Source of the DNA: Bryopsis sp. KO-2023
Lineage: Eukaryota > Chlorophyta > Ulvophyceae > Bryopsidales > Bryopsidaceae
Direction: 5' to 3'
Length of the DNA stretch: 64,000 bases
Assembly (NCBI GenBank): GCA_030272585.1
Contig: BSYQ01000003.1
Location: forward strand, 5,828,001 to 5,892,000
Positions 43,172-52,420 of the stretch are shown in pieces; positions within the stretch are counted from its first letter, which is position 1, and each line of letters begins with the position of its first letter. The notes beneath the pieces were generated by a model. The model was not told where the DNA came from and made no database searches. It was given only the letters and a program-made list of their open reading frames with translations. The position numbers and the translations under genes were made by a program.

Positions 43172-44099
43172 GGGCTCGGTCGCCTCGTGTGCGGGTACAA
43201 TTGACCGTGGAAGGGGAGCAGTCAGGGGATGTGGACGCAAATCGCATGGCGCCAGATGGGAACTCAGCGGCGCGACCGATGGGGGGGGAAGACAGGACGG
43301 CCGAAGTGCGGTCGCCACAGACGCACGCATGCGCTCCAGGCAAGCCGCGCACTCGAGTGGTGGAGGAGGAGACACCGGTAATGCTGATGGCGCCGGGATT
43401 AACTGAGCGAGGCAAAGCGCGGGTACAGGGACTGGGGTTTCGCCGAAAGTACGGAAAAATTGTTGAGGGGGAACAGGCAGTGTTGGGGGTTGAGGGGGTG
43501 GCAGATACTCTTGATGTAAGAGAGGGTCTTTATTGTTGGTTGAAGGGGTGTACTCGGGAGGGGTGGGCTCAGTCCAGTGTTCCTCATTCGGAAGTCTATA
43601 CCCACACTGATTCTGTCCCATTGACGTCCACTGCTACAATCACGGAACCGATGTACGGCTCTCAACTGACGCCGGCCCAGAAAGCCGAAATGGCTGCGGT
43701 CGTTGATCGATGGAAGCACCAAATCTTTGCTACGGACCTCAAGTCGGCTGTCGCCGCCGCTGACCAACATTGCCATCGCATCGACACTGGTAACGTTGCG
43801 CCGGTGGTACAGCGATCGCGGAGGTTCTCGGCAACGGAGCATCAAACTATTGGGGAGGAGGTAGACAAGCTCTTGGAGGCGGGGGCGGTTCGGCAGTCCG
43901 ACAGTGCGTGGTCCAGCCCAGTGGTGTTGGTACCGAAGAAGGACGGCACTTGGCGCTTTTGCGTTGATTATCGCAAATTGAATGCGATCACTCGGCGCGA
44001 CCAATTCCCACTACCCCGCATCGATGAGTGTTTGGATGCACTTGGAGGCGCTGGCTACTTCACGACTTTGGATCTCAAGGCTGGATACTGGCAGGCATA

Positions 44100-44560
44100 C
44101 TATGGACGTGATCGGAAATGATCGGCCGTCCATTTTCGATGTCAGGACAGGTCGTTTCATTGATCTGACCTGACACGATCTCGTTCCACATGATTCTGAA
44201 AATGATCGGTCTTTTTTTTTTTTTTTTTTACCGATCATGATCGATGATCGTGATCGTGATCGGCCGATTAAAACCTGATCGATGATCGTGGTCGGCCGAT
44301 TAAAGCTTGATCGTAATCGGGATCGGGCTTCCGATCATCGATCTAATCGGTTGCTCCGATCACGATCCCGATCACGATCAAGCGTCGCGACATGCAAACG
44401 CCTGATCGGCCGATCAAGATCGGTGAAACGCCGATTAATCGGCCGTTGATCCGATCAGCTCCGATCATGGTCGGTTGATCGGGATTTGGTTTCAAGTTCC
44501 GATTATGATCGGTCCAAGAAATCAAAAACCGACTTTTGCACCGATCATCACTTCCGATCA
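44100..44560. repeat. hAT left subterminal GATCGG repeats
   Basis: More than twenty GATCGG, CCGATC or CGATCA motifs in both orientations, many joined as palindromes such as GATCGGCCGATC. They probably serve as transposase binding sites. Confidence 0.8.
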
Positions 44561-44693
44561 AATCCAAAGTTAGTCAGTTCTGCCGTACTGTCCCGAATAT
44601 ATCGACTTCGCTCCCTGTTCGACTTCACCGCACCGTGCGCCTTTGTATCGTGGTATCTTGTTGTTGTCTCGCCTGCAGTGCTGATCGGTTGCG

Positions 44694-46410
44694 ATGTACG
44701 TGGAACTCAAAGCACGGCAGTATGTCGTGAGGCTCCGGAACAGGCTCCAAAACCGAACAGACCTGTTCCAGCCCGGGACGGTGGTAGATCGGGATGCCGC
44801 CGAGGTGGTGTTCCGGCATTTGACGTCGCTTAACACGTATTTTGGTCTGGAAAATGTAAGTGTATGCTGCCTGCTATCTGCTGCACTGTTTCTATTTCGA
44901 ATGTTTTGACTTAGGGTCAATGTTACTTGTCTTCCTAGGCTCTGTTTTGACTTAGGGTTAATGATACTTGTCTTCCTAGGCTCTGTTCTGGAAAGCTGCA
45001 TCCGCCCTGGACAGCGCTGCGGGAAGCGAAGACGAACTCTTCTTGCGAGCGTACCGAGCGGGCAACCCCCCTGAAAGGCGCATCGACCCCATACTCGATT
45101 CCATTCAGGTGACACCTCCAGGACTGACCAGGAAGGGGAGCACCAACCTGGGGGACATGGAATACCCCTACATGGTGCCTACAGGTGAGCAGTCCAGCAT
45201 CAGGTTCAAAGTAGGTTGTTTTTCTCTCTGCCCTCACATTCACATTCTGTCTTTTGCAGAACTCCTTCGTGATCGCCAGCTATTGCCTCATCTGGACCAG
45301 CTCAGAGAGGAGGTTGCAACCATGCACGAGGTTGATCTAGATCTGAGCAGAACGTTCGACTGGAGCATCGAAGCTGCAAGTCTTCCAGCACCTGATCCTG
45401 CACAAGAGATTTTGCCTGAAGCTACACTTCCAACCGCAGATGAACCTGAACCTGAACCTGAATCTGAACCTGAACCTGAGGGACCCTCTGAGCAGCTGCC
45501 GGAAAACCCGTGGAGTATGACGGACGAGGAGTCTGTTTATGAACCTGAACCTGTGCTTCACCCTGGTGGAAGAGGGCCACCCCCCAATCTGTTCAGAGCT
45601 GCTGAAGGTGGTGGAAGAGGGCCACCCCCAAACATGTTCAGACCTGCTGGAGCTGGTGGAAGAGGGCCACCCCCCAATCTGTTCAGAGCCGCTGAAGGTG
45701 GTGGAAGAGGGCCACCCCCCAACGTGTTCAGAGCTGCTGAAGGTGGTGGAAGAGGGCCACCCCCAAACATGTTCAGAGCTGCTGGAGCTGGTGGAAGGGG
45801 GAATGTTGGTGGATGGGAATTCGGGGGAGGCGGCAGGAACAGGAACCGAGCAGGTCAGGGTGGCCAGGGTGGCCAGGGTGGTCAGGGTGGCCAGGGTGGC
45901 CAGGGTGGTCATGGTGGCCAGGGTGGTTATGGTGGTCAGAGGCAGGCAAACCCCAGACCCCCATTGATGGACAGGTGGCCAATGGACTTTGATGGACAAC
46001 CCTGCATCGAAGACACTGAGGGGTACCCTCTGCGCAGGCAAGCCCCCTTGCGAAGGATCATGTCTGAACGGACCAGGGAACAGCGCAGAACTGCCCAGCG
46101 AGAGAGAGCCAACATGCAGACGGAGTATGCCTTCTTCCCCGACTTCACCATCCAATTCCCGGTAACCTTCGCCTCCATGCCCCATCTGAATCAGTTCGTG
46201 CAAAACGTATACCTGCAGAACTGTTACGCTCTCCACAGAGTCCGTGAAGGCCTCTTCCACCATCAGACCCGTTTGGAGGACCGAAATGTGATGAGGGACC
46301 TGGATATTGGCTCGGTCGACTTTGCACCTATCCCTGAAGACCGCACACGTGTGTATCGGGTCAGGGTTGGACCGGATGGGAGGTTGGTGGAGGAGGAGGA
46401 GCCAAATTAA
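44694..46410 (+). CDS. hAT second gene, 505-residue protein of unknown function
   Basis: Exons 44694-44855, 44980-45184 and 45260-46410, GT-AG with matching phases (0, 1), ending TAA. I do not recognise the N-terminal part (MYVELKARQYVVRLRNRLQN, FRHLTSLNTYFGLEN, ALFWKAASALDSAAG). Then come a (Pro-Glu)n acidic stretch, five copies of a 15-16-residue unit with GRGPPPN (about residues 224-303), and a GGQ collagen-like run (about 318-350). The C-terminal domain is ordinary (QTEYAFFPDFTIQFPVTFAS, YLQNCYALHRVREGLF). RG/GGQ low-complexity segments suggest RNA binding or phase separation; that is inference. The intron-exon structure is intact, so this is not a random frame. Most hAT elements carry only a transposase. 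Confidence 0.8.
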
Positions 46411-46412
46411 AG

Positions 46413-47113
46413 AAACTGTTTTGAGTCACCATAAACAGAGGGTGATCTGTTATCTGTTATCTGTTTTTTGATTCACGTAATGAACCATGAACCAGTCTGG
46501 TATATGTTATCTGTTTTTTGATTCACGTAATGAACCTTGAACCATGAACCATAAACAGAGGGTTATTTGTGTGGGCTGAATCAGTGTTGGAATCTGTGGA
46601 ACCTCTGAAACTTTTTGTTTTGTTTGAGTCATGTAATGAACCATGAACCATAAACAGAGGGTTATTTGTGTGGGCGGAATCAGTGTTGGAATCTGTGGAA
46701 CCTCTGAAACTTTTTGTTTTGTTTGAGTCATGTAATGAACCATGAACCATAAACAGAGGGTTATTTGTGTGGGCTGAATCAGTGTTGGAATCTGTGGAAC
46801 CTCTGAAACTTTTTGTTTTGTTTGAGTCATGTAATGAACCATGAACCATAAACAGAGGGTTATTTGTGTGGGCGGAATCAGTGTTGGAATCTGTGGAACC
46901 TCTGAAACTTTTTGTTTTGTTTGAGTCATGTAATGAACCATGAACCATAAACAGAGGGTTATTTGTGTGGGCTGAATCAGTGTTGGAATCTGTGGAACCT
47001 CTGAAACTTTTTGTTTTGTTTGAGTCATGTAATGAACCATGAACCATAAACAGAGGGTTATTTGTGTGGGCGGAATCAGTGCTGGAATCTGTGGAAACCT
47101 CTGAAACTTTTTA
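46413..47113. repeat. 99-bp tandem array between the two hAT genes
   Basis: Six copies of a 99-bp unit (TGAACCATAAACAGAGGG, then TTATTTGTGTGGGC) preceded by shorter related units from 46436. Copies strictly alternate GCTGAATC and GCGGAATC, so the array has a 198-bp higher-order period. Because 99 is a multiple of three, the minus strand is open for 204 codons, but that frame is a repeat artefact. Confidence 0.92.
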
Positions 47114-47336
47114 CCAAGCATTCAAAAGAGTTTGGATTACATACCCATACCAAAACAAACAGAACTCGGGGCAAATCACACCAGGTCAAGATGCAGATTG
47201 TCTGATCCATACCCAGCACCCCAAACAGAGAACATACCCGGCACCCCAAACCAAAAAAAGGAGAGTTCCTCCGTAACAGGAGGGTTCTGAATCAGAATAC
47301 AGATTGTCCCACACAATCAAACAGAAGCAGTTCAGG

Positions 47337-50015
47337 TCATGCCCTGAACAGATGCAGATTGTCCCGGAGCACGGTCAGTTGGTTGACCTTGCTCTCCTCC
47401 ATCGCCCTCCTGCGCTTGTTCAGCTGGTGGCCATTGACACTGAACATCCGCTCAACCGAGGCGCTGGAGGCTGGGATGCAGAGATACTCGGCAGCCAGGA
47501 TCGAAACTGTTGGGTATGCCGCCTGGTGTACCCTCCACCAGTCCAGAACAGATGAAGTGCTCTGAATAACCCTCCTGACCCCACAATATCGCTCCCACTC
47601 ATCAGAATAAGAACCGCCCGTAGCGGATGGAGGAGGGCACACACTGAGCCAGTCCCGTTCGAGATTTTCCTTTTTCTTTTTTTTTCCCTCTCTGCCTTCC
47701 CCCGGATTGTCAACACCTCTGTAATCTGATCGCTCCCGGATCTCCTTCAGCAGAGTCACGCACTCTTGCAGCACATCTGAAACCCACAGATCAGGTCTGC
47801 TGAATTGCTTCCTCAAGCAAGGAAAGCGCCCTGGGGTGCCCCACAAATACCGATTCACCTCAGCGTCTTCGAGTGATAGTTTGGTCGGATCCAGATGCTG
47901 CATGCACCCGACGGCCAGGAGCCATGCGGGATCGTCAAATTCATGGTCCATGACTGTGCGGAGCACATCTCTGAAGTCTATCACATCCGGTTCCTCGATG
48001 TTCATGGCATCTACCGCAGCGCTGATCCGAGCCATGAGCATCAGGACGGCACTCCCCGTCACCTTCTTTTCTGCCTCCAGTACCTTGGTTGCTTCCTTGT
48101 ATGGCCTCAGAACCAGGTACAGTTCCAGCAGCACTTTCCATTCTTGGGGGTTGATATTGTATTGGGGGGGAAGGAGGGGAAAGAGCTGGATCAGATCGGG
48201 TTTCAAAATCAACAATCGATGCAACATGTACCAGATGCTGTTCCACCTAGTCTCCACCGCCAAGGTGAGTCTGAGAACCTTGTCAGATCTGCGGACAGGT
48301 CCTGGGCAGTCTTCTGCCTCCTCCACGTCGTCTCCATCATCGGGACATGCTTCTTCATCACTTGAATATATTTCCTGTGATGTGGGGTCGTCCTGTTCCT
48401 GGCTCTGATGGTCGTTTTGATTAGATTCCTCTTGTGCATCCTCCAGAAGTTCATCCTCATCAACTTGAGATGGACCGGGGCTCTCACCAAGCCCACCGTT
48501 GCCAATCCCAGAGGCACCCGTGGCTGTCGAGGACCGGACCACATAAATTAACTCTTGGGGATCAGCCTCCGCTTGTTGCCGTTCCAGATCAGCTTCTTTT
48601 CTTTTGGCTCGATCGATCTGAATCTGTTTCAGCTTTTCCCAATGAGTGGATGCACCCATCACTGTTCTGCACAGATCGTGTACTTTGGCCACAAGGTCGT
48701 TCACGCTTTGGGGGGCATTTTTCAGACCCTTCTTTACCCCCAAATTTATTCTGTGTGTCCCGCACCCGTGCCAATCGTAACTGTAGTTCATTTCACATGC
48801 TGCCCCCATTCTGGACTCGTGATCGGTAACGATGCTGGCCTGATATCCGGTCAGATCAAAGTCCTCCCTGATCTCGTTCATTTGTGTGCAAATGTCCACA
48901 GCAGTTGCGGTACCCTCCATTTCCCAGGTCCCGAGACTGATCCGCTTGAGTTCGAACAGATCCTGTTCCGGGTCCCGGTGTATGTAGACAGCCCCCATCG
49001 CGAACCAATGCTTGGGCTGCTGAGACCAACCATCAGCAACAAAGCATGGTCGGAATCTGCTCAGATCCATATCCTTCATCTTTTTTTTAAGCCTGTTGGA
49101 GGACAAACCGACCTGGTGAGACATGGATTTCGCTGATAGAGGCGGAGCAGATGCGTTCAGTTGAGTGCACATGTCTCGGAAGTGCTGATCTTCCACTGTC
49201 CTGAAGGGGGCCCCGACGCTGACCAGATAGCACATAACCTTGTGCCGGTACGACTGGAACTCCCGGGTAGTAGGTCCCCATTTAGACACAAACGGGAGTG
49301 TTTTCTGGGTCCCAAAAGAACTGATCCGACCCCCTTGTGTGCCTGTTTTCATGTCCTGATCCTTTTGCCTTTTCAAATGGCAGCCCTCAAAGCCTTCCGC
49401 GACAGCGATTTCCATTTCGGAACTGATCCGGATACCGTGTTTGGCCGCATGATTCAAAAGGGGGATCCTGCCTCCCTTCACCCATGACAATTGTTCATGA
49501 CAGATTCTGCACGACACCACCTTTCTGCCCCGATCATCCTTATACACCAGGATCTTGCCTTCTGGACTGCTGACATACATCTTGTCAACCCATGTGTTAC
49601 TTCTCCGAACAGGAATCACAGGAGGGCTTGCACCCAGTTCCAGCAGATCAGCTTCCTTTCCATTTCTGTTCACTGCAGGGCAGGGCAGGACAGGACAAAC
49701 ACCTCATAAAAGCAGAACCAGAACAACTGGAGAAAGCACAAGCACCTCACACAATCCAACAAGGGAACACCTCACCCCCCCACAAAACCATAAGAGTACA
49801 ACAAGGCGGAACAGATCAGGGAGTAACGCACTGTTGGTCAGGTCAGATGCTTGCCCCGACCCCTGCGGCCCCACGGATGGAACGCTGCCCTGGCGACGAG
49901 GTTCCAACCCCCCGCTTCCAGATCCGGTCGGAACTGGTCTCCTCTGGGACGTGTGTGGGCGTTGCCCCGACCTCGCAGGGGTGACGAGCGCTTTTCTTTT
50001 TCCATGCCGGCCCAT
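47337..50015 (-). CDS. hAT transposase
   Basis: Two exons on the minus strand, 50015-49832 and 49672-47337, joined in phase 1 (GT-AG), give 839 residues. A BED-type zinc finger has CRICHEQLSWVKGGRIPLLN followed by HAAKH (about residues 113-140). The RNase H-like catalytic region includes SIVTDHESRMGAACEMNY, GCGTHRINLGVKKGL (the C-x-x-H hAT motif) and VETRWNSIWYMLHRL. The C-terminal hATC dimerisation domain is YPTVSILAAEYLCIPASSAS, then VERMFSVNGHQLNKRR. A long acidic insertion lies before the TRWNS motif. All hallmark residues are present and no stop interrupts it, so it may be active. The start is the first ATG of exon 1 (MGRHGKRKALV). Confidence 0.93.
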
Positions 50016-50139
50016 TTCGAACGGGGCGCTGATAAGACGTGGAGTTAAACGCTCACCAGATTAACAGCAACCGAACATGCGATGTGCCCGCGTGACTCAC
50101 CTGCATCTCACCCGCGATCAATGATCGATTCTTGACGTA

Positions 50140-50868
50140 GACGACCCACCGATCATGATCGGTGTTGCGCCGATCATGATCGGCGCAAGCCGATTATAGT
50201 CGATCGCGCCGATCCCGATCACGATCTCGATCAAGCGTCGCACCCTGTCGGCACCTGATCGGCAGTTTTTGATCGGCCGATCACGATCAGGCCGATCAAA
50301 AACTGCCGATCAGGTTGGGTGACCGATCAGATCGGTGATCGGCCGATCGTGATCGATGATCGGCCCTGCCTGATACAAACGTGGAACAAATAGACTAGTC
50401 GAGTGGACTTACGTCTAGAGCACGGAAAGACTTTCTCAAACAAGGATCTTTACAATAGTCCAAGTTACAATAAGGCTGTGGTCCGGGCCGAATAAGTATT
50501 CGGCCGGGCCGACAGCCTGTCCAACCCTTTCATCCAACTCAGCGTCCTAATGGCCCCTTGGCCGTGTCCTAATGGACCCTAAGCTGAATGTGAGGCTCCA
50601 GGCCGAACTGAGGGTTGCCACCTCAGAGGCGGCCTGGCCCTCTCCCTTAATGTGTGGCTATGATGATGGTGAGCTGGTTCGGTCCGACTACTGTCAGGCC
50701 GAACCACGTGTTGGGTGAGTGGGCCGAACCGCGTGTCATACGACGGACGTTCGTATCACTGCCAGACCTGATCGGCGACCGATCAGATCGGTGATCGGCC
50801 GATCACGATCATGATCGGTCTCCCGGTTGATCGGAGACCGATCTGATCGTGATCGGATCCATAGTATG
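50140..50868. repeat. hAT right subterminal GATCGG repeats
   Basis: Two blocks of GATCGG/CCGATC motifs (about 50140-50370 and 50765-50868) separated by about 390 bp of unrelated sequence with its own short palindromes (GGCCGAATAAGTATTCGGCC). The gap starts GATACAAACG and ends CGTTCGTATC, so a small secondary insertion there is possible. Confidence 0.7.
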
Positions 50869-51586
50869 CTGGCAGGTGCCCATAGCCGATGCCGATGCCG
50901 AAAAAACGGCGTTTTCGTGTCGACAAGGCTTGTTTGAGTGGGTCGTTATGCCTATGGGTCTCGTGAATGCGCCAAGTACTTTCCAGAGACTTATGAATGC
51001 GCGGTTCCGGGAGCGGTTGTGGCGCGATGTCCTCGTTTATTTGGACGACATCATTATCTTTTCTCGAACTTGGAGCGAGCATTTGGCGGCGGTGGACTCG
51101 GTGTTTGCGGCTCTGGCTCAGGATGGGTGGCGGATTGCGCCGCATAAGGCTGTTTTGGGTGCCACCGAGGTGGAATACCTTGGATTCGTCGTGTCTGGCG
51201 ATTGTGTGCGTACCTCACCCAAGAAGGTGGCAGCTCTTCTGGATATGGCACCCCCACGCACGCTCAGTGAACCATGGACGTTCCTCGGAATGGCGTCCTA
51301 CTATCGCCGCTTCATCAAGGCGTTTGCCAAACGTGCTGCCCCGTTACATCGGCTGCTTCGCGACGACGTCCCTTTTGTATGGACGCCTGGGGCCCAGGGA
51401 GCGTGGGAGTCGTTGCGCGATGCGCTGGCCGCCGAACCCGTGATGAGTCCTCCACGGCGGGATCGGCCTTTCCTGTTGCACACGGATTGGTCTAAGCAGG
51501 GGATCGCGGCGATTCTCTCCCAGCGCGATGATGATGGCCACGAGCGGGTAATTTCCTATGCGGCTCGGTCGTTGTCTCGCGCTGAA

Positions 51587-52052
51587 CAGAGATAGGACTT
51601 GGGCCAAATTTTTGGTCCGGCTACGGTCCGGTCCGGTTACGGTCGGTTTACGGTTCCGTATTACGGCCGTAACTCCGTACCGTAACCGGAGTAATATGTT
51701 GTTTTTACGGTACGGAACAGGTACGGTATAGCTACGGTAGCCCCTAAATCATCGTGAAGTAGTGTGGTTCAGTGCTAAAGCGTTAGGCTGTAGTCTGTAA
51801 GGTCGTGGGTTCGAATCCCCTTGGGTTCCTTTGGGTTCTCGGGACCCTGCGGGGGTTACTATTTACGGTTTACGGTTGGTACGGTGGTCACGGTCGGTAC
51901 GGTCCGGTACCGGAGCAGTACGGAGTGGTACGGTGGTCCGGTTCCGAGCACGAAAACCACTCCGGTCCGGACCGTAACTACCGTAACCGTAAGTGACCGG
52001 AGTGGGGTTACGGTACGGTTTACGGTACCGTAACCGGAAAGTCCTATCTCTG
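51587..52052 (+). mobile_element. hAT-type MITE, copy 3
   Basis: 466 bp, same orientation as copy 1 and nearly identical to it. Duplication GCGCTGAA (51579-51586 and 52053-52060). It is inserted in RNase H codons of Ty3-1. The tRNA-like segment is at about 51753-51830. Confidence 0.93.
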
Positions 52053-52420
52053 GCGCTGAAGCCAATTACCCATCCGTGGAGGGTGAGGCTCTTGCCGTTG
52101 TCTGGGGCGTGACGCAGTTTCGGCATTATCTGTTTGGTGCGGATTTCACGGTTGTTACCGATCACCATGGCCTGCAGTGGATGATGACGACCCAGAATTT
52201 GGCGGGCCGGGTGGGTCGTTGGGCCATGGTCCTGATGGAGTACTCGGGCCATATGTCGGTGCTTTATCGCAAGGGTAAGGTTCATCAGAATGTGGACGCG
52301 TTGTCTCGGGCCCGCTTCTTGTCGGCCGATGGGTATCGCGGCTGTGTGTTGCCTGCGGCGACGCCGACGTCTGAGCTGCGCGGTAGCTTGGGCGCGTTTT
52401 ACGATGCATGGTTTGGATGA

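Follow-up and report, generated by a model that had tools for sequence, protein, structure and literature searches.

hAT elements are widespread DNA transposons that serve as genetic tools and are generally treated as one-protein systems. Other DNA transposons carry a second gene beside the transposase: MuDR has two convergent genes, mudrA and mudrB, and the second protein of Harbinger is Myb-like. A conserved partner gene would give a hAT lineage such a second component, as in Harbinger, CACTA and some Mutator-like elements. In the available passages of the literature, Harbinger and CACTA are described with a transposase plus a second protein (PMC4423477, PMC2528002), hAT elements usually encode a single transposase (PMC4423477) and Hermes is presented as a single component (PMC10512250); where those passages mention second frames of DNA transposons, these belong to Mutator, Harbinger, CACTA or PIF, and never to hAT. 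The targets of VANC, the second protein of VANDAL elements, are described in the passages available as fast-diverging, non-coding tandem repeats (PMC5735166, PMC10398659). A search of titles and abstract openings, with a coverage that mostly leaves out subscription journals, returned no hAT element with a second gene or frame, and a literature search for hAT elements in Ulvophyceae returned no paper.

A hAT element with two convergent genes

The window, a stretch of 64,000 nucleotides from Bryopsis sp. KO-2023, contains a hAT element of 6,773 bp, bounded by 11-bp inverted repeats and flanked on both sides by an exact 8-bp target duplication (Table 1). A previous sequence-only reading had reported the hAT element and its exact duplications. 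Within the window the terminal motif is exact only at the two element ends, with one further site at one mismatch (41897); shuffled windows gave a mean of 0.34 matches when one mismatch was allowed. Across the genome (91 Mb, 28 contigs) each strand carries the motif 264 times, compared with 5 and 11 occurrences of a reversed control pattern. The insertion splits a frame resembling that of a gypsy-like retrotransposon reverse transcriptase.

The same retrotransposon also harbours a small element with inverted ends AGAGATAGGACTT and AAGTCCTATCTCT, which holds a tRNA-like stretch with a B-box-like GGTTCGAATCC. Because its ends resemble those (CAGAGATAGGAC) of a different hAT element of this genome (family G, L030), it may be a non-autonomous derivative of that type.

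Table 1. Features of the element and its surroundings, in window coordinates
Feature	Position	Strand	Basis or remark
Target-site duplication CTGGCAGG, left copy, 8 bp	44088..44095		sequence read
hAT element	44096..50868		
Left terminal inverted repeat CATACTATGGA	44096..44106	+	sequence read, motif scan
Left subterminal array rich in GATCGG/CCGATC	44107..44690		
Gene 2, whole	44694..46410	+	
Gene 2 exon 1: N-terminal domain, ends ...YFGLEN	44694..44855	+	
Gene 2 intron 1, with 41-bp tandem duplication	44856..44979	+	
Gene 2 exon 2	44980..45184	+	
Gene 2 intron 2	45185..45259	+	
Gene 2 exon 3: end of N domain, acidic linker, repeats, C-terminal domain, stop	45260..46410	+	
45-bp units encoding five GRGPPPN repeats	45564..45797	+	units at 45568, 45613, 45658, 45703, 45748
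GGQ-repeat stretch	45853..45926	+	
C-terminal domain (WPMDFDG...IQFP...HL.QF.QNV...LHR.REGL), conserved across six families	45976..46407	+	
Intergenic tandem arrays, periods 50 and 99 bp, between the convergent stop codons	46446..47112		
Main transposase exon, 788-codon stop-to-stop frame	47337..49703	-	
Probable first transposase exon (MGRHGKRK..., basic)	49832..50015	-	predicted from sequence; 159-bp intron to 49672
Right subterminal array rich in GATCGG/CCGATC	50115..50857		
Right terminal inverted repeat TCCATAGTATG	50858..50868	-	sequence read, motif scan
Target-site duplication CTGGCAGG, right copy, 8 bp	50869..50876		sequence read
Small element inside the retrotransposon	51590..52060		

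The second gene, here called gene 2, has three exons and 505 codons, with GT-AG introns and a terminal stop, and is convergent with the transposase, the two lying on opposite strands with their stop codons facing. Its open three-exon structure, its length and its orientation are thus as the sequence-only reading had described them. The protein features noted there, namely five GRGPPPN repeats, a GGQ run and a conserved-looking C-terminal domain, were all located in exon 3, and the C domain is indeed conserved in six families. The two conserved domains have pI values of 4.8 to 8.0, from acidic to roughly neutral, and the linkers are rich in Gly, Pro and Arg (Pro/Glu/Gly-Arg, low complexity). 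When intron 1 of the window copy was aligned with that of other copies, 41 gap columns appeared against L008, L012 and L017, and none against L002.

The transposase frame contains a finger-like CxxC...H...H stretch, ADGW, TDHE and SVER blocks, and a hAT dimerisation domain (Pfam Dimer_Tnp_hAT, E 3.1e-18, 65.8 bits against a cut-off of 21.4); it also matches Hermes structures (E 3.8e-9). The three blocks occur in the transposases of all six families that carry gene 2, and they are the putative site of the hAT catalytic acidic residues. A short basic exon upstream probably belongs to the same gene. The closest transposase found outside this genome (P0004) is 39% identical over 95% of the length and lies on a contig of at most 2.6 kb; one scan of a viral collection gave no relatives of the transposase.

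DNA-level searches of the genome gave at least 60 matches for gene 2 (40 of 73 candidates scored) and at least 41 for the transposase (40 of 118 scored). We assigned family labels A to H, and sampled 20 further loci of the window's own family, A, making 21 with the window copy. Of these 21, 10 have exact ends and the same 8-bp duplication on both sides; another copy, L009, has the duplication with a one-base change in its end. The whole three-exon frame of gene 2 is kept in 16 of 19 scored copies, the exceptions being an early stop in L005, an insertion in L017 and L001, for which no call was made; L018 and L019 fell outside the scored set. Despite its broken gene-2 frame, L017 is still bounded by both ends and flanked by an exact duplication. 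All 11 copies with a full-length transposase match have that frame intact, and several others are truncated or interrupted. The sequence-only reading had raised the question of whether other full-length copies keep both genes, and they do. Taken as a whole, the window copy is well supported as a complete member of a two-gene hAT lineage.

L005 is without its left end, and at index 394-415 of the oriented locus it reads TACCCTAACCTAGGGTAAACC, resembling plant-type telomere repeats.

Shorter relatives are also present. Two of 1,025 bp were read, and both keep the ends, the arrays and exact duplications with no room for either gene, which fits a supply of the proteins in trans; a third, of 306 bp, has imperfect duplications.

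The number of low-complexity repeats differs between family A copies. These copies are about 1% divergent over most of their length, so intact frames within the family are weak evidence against the reading that gene 2 is no gene, its frame being open by chance and its protein apparent only because the copies are recent.

Gene 2 in other families and its pairing with the transposase

A protein search with the last 105 residues of gene 2 gave 112 matches to the C domain in the genome, some of them pieces of one copy and most free of internal stops. Identities were mostly 83-100% in family A, and about 62%, 54%, 49%, 44%, 42%, 41% and less elsewhere; the transposase gave a corresponding series of about 73%, 60%, 58% and 55%. 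Gene 2 is present in at least six families (A, B, C, D, E and H), whose transposases are down to about 54% identical and whose gene-2 proteins have the domains and GRGPPP-type repeats in common. Invariant columns number 28 in the C domain (six families) and 24 in the N domain (five families). Between families, these homologous domains are 28-67% identical at synonymous distances of at least 0.7. Such homology excludes a chance frame, the least probable of all the readings weighed here.

Nine gene-2 loci from other families were fetched. The ends of families B, D and E are CATACTATGGAT or CATACTAGGGAT, that is CATACTA(T/G)GGAT, with exact 8-bp duplications in all six copies; no credible end pair with a duplication was found for the three loci L027, L028 and L029 (families C and H and the E-like L028). 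In splice models predicted from the DNA, the exon boundaries and splice phases of the N domain are identical in A, B, D and E. Exon 1 of B, D and E ends in FGLE or FGLR plus one codon, at the same place as in A; exon 2 ends in VPT or VKT, in the same phase; and exon 3 runs on into acidic or Pro/Ala linkers, GRGPPP-type repeats and the C domain. The models for family C have a GC donor at intron 1 and an interrupted exon 2, and that for family E has one extra intron.

Several of these loci show peculiarities of their own. In family B (L021 and L022), gene 2 contains tandemly repeated units of 153-162 bp that include an intron (93 bp in L021), so that whole intron-exon units multiply; there are three such introns in L021 and fewer in L022. 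In L029 (family H), intron 2 is absent at the conserved exon 2/3 junction, which looks like a precise intron loss. Diverged C-domain matches of 35-54% identity (C2:3342796, C2:2999554, C2:2564301 and C2:4023298) may be relics or further families.

The two genes are closely associated. A match to the C terminus of gene 2 faces the transposase within 3 kb for 58 of the 62 transposase frames of at least 700 codons (A, 27 of 27; B, 8 of 10; C, 1 of 1; E, 7 of 7; D and others, 15 of 17). This count drew on 107 of the 112 gene-2 matches and 91 of the 127 transposase matches, short fragments and 16 family-G matches being omitted. Two of the four unpaired frames were read. Each aligns with the reference mainly over the stretch that begins in the intergenic repeats and reaches the right end, and the 7.5 to 8 kb retrieved for them contain no left end; for these reasons they look like truncated copies and not like complete elements without gene 2. 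The sequence-only reading had held that intact transposase copies lacking gene 2 would mark it as a captured passenger, and both of the candidates read, out of four, look truncated in this way. The remaining two belong to a cluster on contig 2 and are separated from a gene-2 match by 5 to 11 kb. When the count starts from gene 2 instead, 16 of 95 whole-domain matches are without a transposase match at 3 kb or less; of these, L001 and L003 were read, and both hold transposase pieces.

Another reading is that gene 2 encodes a repressor or copy-number regulator, made by the element to limit its own transposase. Selection among element lineages could in principle maintain such a gene, its product could work in trans, and the convergent layout would permit antisense control. 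However, a self-limiting gene would be expected to disappear readily over short times, and the loci read include no complete copy without gene 2; we consider a repressor improbable.

Selection on gene 2 and its history with the transposase

The sequence-only reading had proposed that gene 2 is under selection and had suggested computing dN/dS; between families, where measurable, the ratio for gene 2 is 0.21-0.54. The least saturated pair, D and H, gave 0.33 for the N domain and 0.28 for the C domain. The other measurable pairs gave 0.23-0.54 for the N domain (nine pairs) and 0.21 and 0.29 for the C domain (two pairs), at a dS of 1.3 to 3.2, where the estimates are poor; saturation affects 12 of 15 C-domain pairs. 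The transposase gave 0.11 to 0.24 where measurable, and 0.59 for D and H, the H frame being shortened.

Within family A, the gene-2 changes common to at least two of 16 copies comprise 7 non-synonymous and 11 synonymous ones, a lower non-synonymous share than the 70-76% that neutrality predicts (p between 0.0009 and 0.005, according to the transition bias assumed). Changes confined to one copy are depleted less strongly (22 of 38 non-synonymous, p 0.011 to 0.067). In the transposase, shared changes (10 of 15 non-synonymous) do not deviate significantly, and single-copy changes (18 of 30) are borderline (p 0.031 to 0.13). The codon table drew on 16 of the 21 copies for gene 2, among them L005, which carries a stop, and on 11 of the 21 for the transposase. 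Taken with the between-family ratios below one, this pattern of change shows purifying selection on gene 2. In this respect the earlier proposal holds, but the argument then given for it, that splice sites had survived in a recent insertion, is weak on its own since any recent copy retains its splice sites; it is the between-family evidence that carries the case.

The transposase and the gene-2 C domain gave trees of one topology, ((A,B),(C,(E,(D,H)))). Support for the A-B split is 0.998 in the transposase tree and 0.784 in that of the C domain, where it is the weakest split; across 15 pairs, distances in the two proteins correlate with r = 0.73. Of the two genes, gene 2 changes the more quickly, with identities of 60% (C domain) against 65% for A and B, and 36% against 54% for A and D, which would also fit a factor engaged in an arms race.

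Co-inheritance of the two genes is not strict. Between D and H (L025 and L029), dS is 0.16 in the transposase and 0.70 and 1.19 in the two gene-2 domains; this far lower value suggests that parts are at times exchanged between copies, and a transposase segment was probably exchanged between these two families. The window subfamily differs from other family A copies (L005-L013) by 1.4-1.7% in gene 2 and 0.5-0.9% in the transposase, a mismatch that looks like recombination between element copies.

We also considered whether gene 2 changes several-fold faster than the transposase at synonymous sites within family A, and rejected this: the pairwise medians are 0.36% and 0.46%, respectively (45 pairs from 10 copies), and the apparent gap arises because one subfamily split, the window copy included, looks recombinant.

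These results weigh on the idea that gene 2 is a passenger, that is, a gene of host or foreign origin that an ancestral element picked up a single time and that has since travelled with it without being of use to it. Such an origin would agree with the usual description of hAT elements with a transposase alone (available passages of PMC4423477 and PMC10512250), with our failure to recognise a homologue of gene 2 in Pfam, the PDB or the protein collection, and with the variation in low-complexity repeat number between copies. Against it, frames, splice phases and two domains were retained while between-family synonymous sites neared or reached saturation, dN/dS between families is below one, and gene 2 is paired with a transposase whose tree has an identical topology. 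Nor was a host homologue recognised, two of the 16 whole-domain matches without a nearby transposase having been read. A captured passenger is therefore unlikely, and we rate it as very improbable, below even the repressor. That gene 2 is a selected partner of some kind is, in our judgement, very probable.

Possible function and comparison with known systems

What kind of partner it might be could not be read from homology. The N-terminal domain had been called unrecognised in the sequence-only reading, and a PDB profile search with it indeed gave no match, nor did one with the C domain. A profile search of the N- and C-terminal parts had been suggested there as a route to relatives; it led to none that is credible. 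The full protein, compared with 5.8 billion proteins in a word-based search that scored the best 7,993 candidates by shared words, had no credible match, and the C-domain profile found none in the protein collection at E up to 1 among 3,869 candidates. Pfam gave no acceptable match to gene 2, Myb and other DNA-binding domains included. An AlphaFold model of the C domain, built from one sequence, had a mean pLDDT of 44.5 and no usable fold. Two sets of candidates were discarded as chance matches: three glycine-rich proteins from the collection (E 0.14 to 0.79), and Pfam hits to five families, each from one C-domain member (E no better than 0.043).

The non-coding parts of the element offer further clues. 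GATCGG/CCGATC reaches 32.7 per kb in the first 550 bp on the left, compared with 0.7 for the element's interior and 0.36 for the window outside it; at the ends of A, B, D and E together the density is 13 to 42 per kb, falling to 0.4 to 1.4 in their interiors. Intergenic tandem arrays are found in all six gene-2 families examined, with unit lengths of 50 and 99 bp in A, 137, 27 and 19 bp in B, 66 bp in C, 98 bp in D, 78 and 62 bp in E, and 83 bp in H. The family-G hAT L030 has no GATCGG at its ends, with subterminal arrays of ACCGTA instead, and it too contains tandem arrays. We had considered the GATCGG arrays as binding sites for the gene-2 protein; since the family-G element has arrays of another motif and no gene 2, arrays do not require gene 2 and are, alone, no evidence that its protein binds them.

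Observed/expected CpG is 0.49 in gene 2 and 0.60 in the transposase, against 0.81 in the whole window. Among single-copy changes in family A, CpG transitions run at 0.028 per site, against 0.019 at other C/G sites and 0.033 at A/T sites; there being no strong excess, heavy recent methylation of these copies is not evident. The sequence evidence on methylation of the element is thus mixed.

These features were weighed for an anti-silencing factor. Like VANC, such a protein would bind non-coding parts of its own family, strip silent chromatin marks and let the transposase gene be expressed. In its favour, the element has two genes and resides in a genome with a plastid: the assembly includes a 91,672-bp plastid contig with psbA and psbD, and the host is therefore photosynthetic (the plastid D1 matches many D1 chains, 9hd7 best). 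The family-specific unit lengths of the intergenic arrays recall the VANC targets, likewise fast-diverging repeats in the available passages (PMC5735166, PMC10398659), gene 2 changes more quickly than the transposase, and CpG depletion in both genes is what past methylation could cause. However, the most conserved non-coding motif, the terminal GATCGG, is common to four families, which VANC targets are not; the family-G element, without gene 2, has tandem arrays as well; the single-copy changes carry no strong excess of CpG transitions; and gene 2 has no convincing Pfam match. On balance we find an anti-silencing factor rather unlikely.

We favour instead a trans-acting co-factor of the transposase, the VANC-like alternative fitting somewhat less well. 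The pairing, the common tree topology, the faster evolution and the mobile relatives without both genes all fit such a co-factor, and we counted in its favour that families A, B, D and E carry GATCGG arrays while L030, without gene 2, carries arrays of ACCGTA. Against it count the pI of the conserved domains, atypical for a strong DNA binder, the family-G arrays in an element without gene 2, the quicker change of gene 2 in so far as it would also fit an arms race, the uneven co-inheritance of the two genes, the low-confidence single-sequence fold, the intact ends and duplication of L017, and the 16 gene-2 matches with no transposase nearby. According to this proposal, the transposase would cut and paste the element in the ordinary hAT manner, and the gene-2 protein, supplied in trans, would help to build or regulate a protein-DNA complex on the GATCGG arrays at both ends. 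The two conserved domains would make contacts and the repeat linker would supply many weak ones, and selection would keep gene 2 in that the element needs its protein for its own spread. We infer the action in trans, the action together with the transposase and the arrays as the place of action.

If gene 2 is a selected partner, the chance that it is a transposition co-factor is somewhat better than even; an anti-silencing role is then distinctly less probable, and some other role takes a small remaining share. As the best explanation of the whole, the trans-acting co-factor stands for us at an even balance between true and false. Somewhat more tentatively, and short of that balance, this hAT clade may have depended, from a time before its families diverged, on an obligatory second protein of a new family, acting in the transposition complex or as a sequence-specific anti-silencing factor whose origin was independent of VANC. 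Were this so, hAT, usually a one-gene superfamily, would have a two-component system of its own; were the anti-silencing reading true, it would represent an independent origin of a strategy known from VANDALs. In either case, the many intact copies in one genome provide material for studying the role of gene 2.

PIF/Harbinger, CACTA (En/Spm) and MuDR resemble the present element in being DNA transposons with a transposase and a second protein, but they belong to other superfamilies, and no Myb domain was found in gene 2. VANDAL elements of Arabidopsis share with it a fast-evolving second protein beside the transposase and non-coding tandem arrays. They differ in that their transposase is Mutator-like (MULE), the present one being hAT, and in that the GATCGG end motif of the present element is common to several families; moreover, the activity of VANC is known by experiment, whereas gene 2 is known here from sequence alone and is likened to VANC by description. 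The family-G hAT of this genome (L030) has a hAT-type C-terminal part in its transposase (38-39% identity over about 100 residues, 16 matches), an 8-bp duplication and subterminal arrays. It differs in its length of 4,743 bp, its ends, its array motif and the absence of gene 2, neither domain of which was found in it by tblastn at E 0.01 (11 matches in the positive control, L021). Finally, the present element shares with the hAT elements Ac and Hermes the 8-bp duplications, short inverted repeats, subterminal motif arrays, hAT dimerisation domain and Hermes match; unlike them, it carries a second, convergent and conserved gene.
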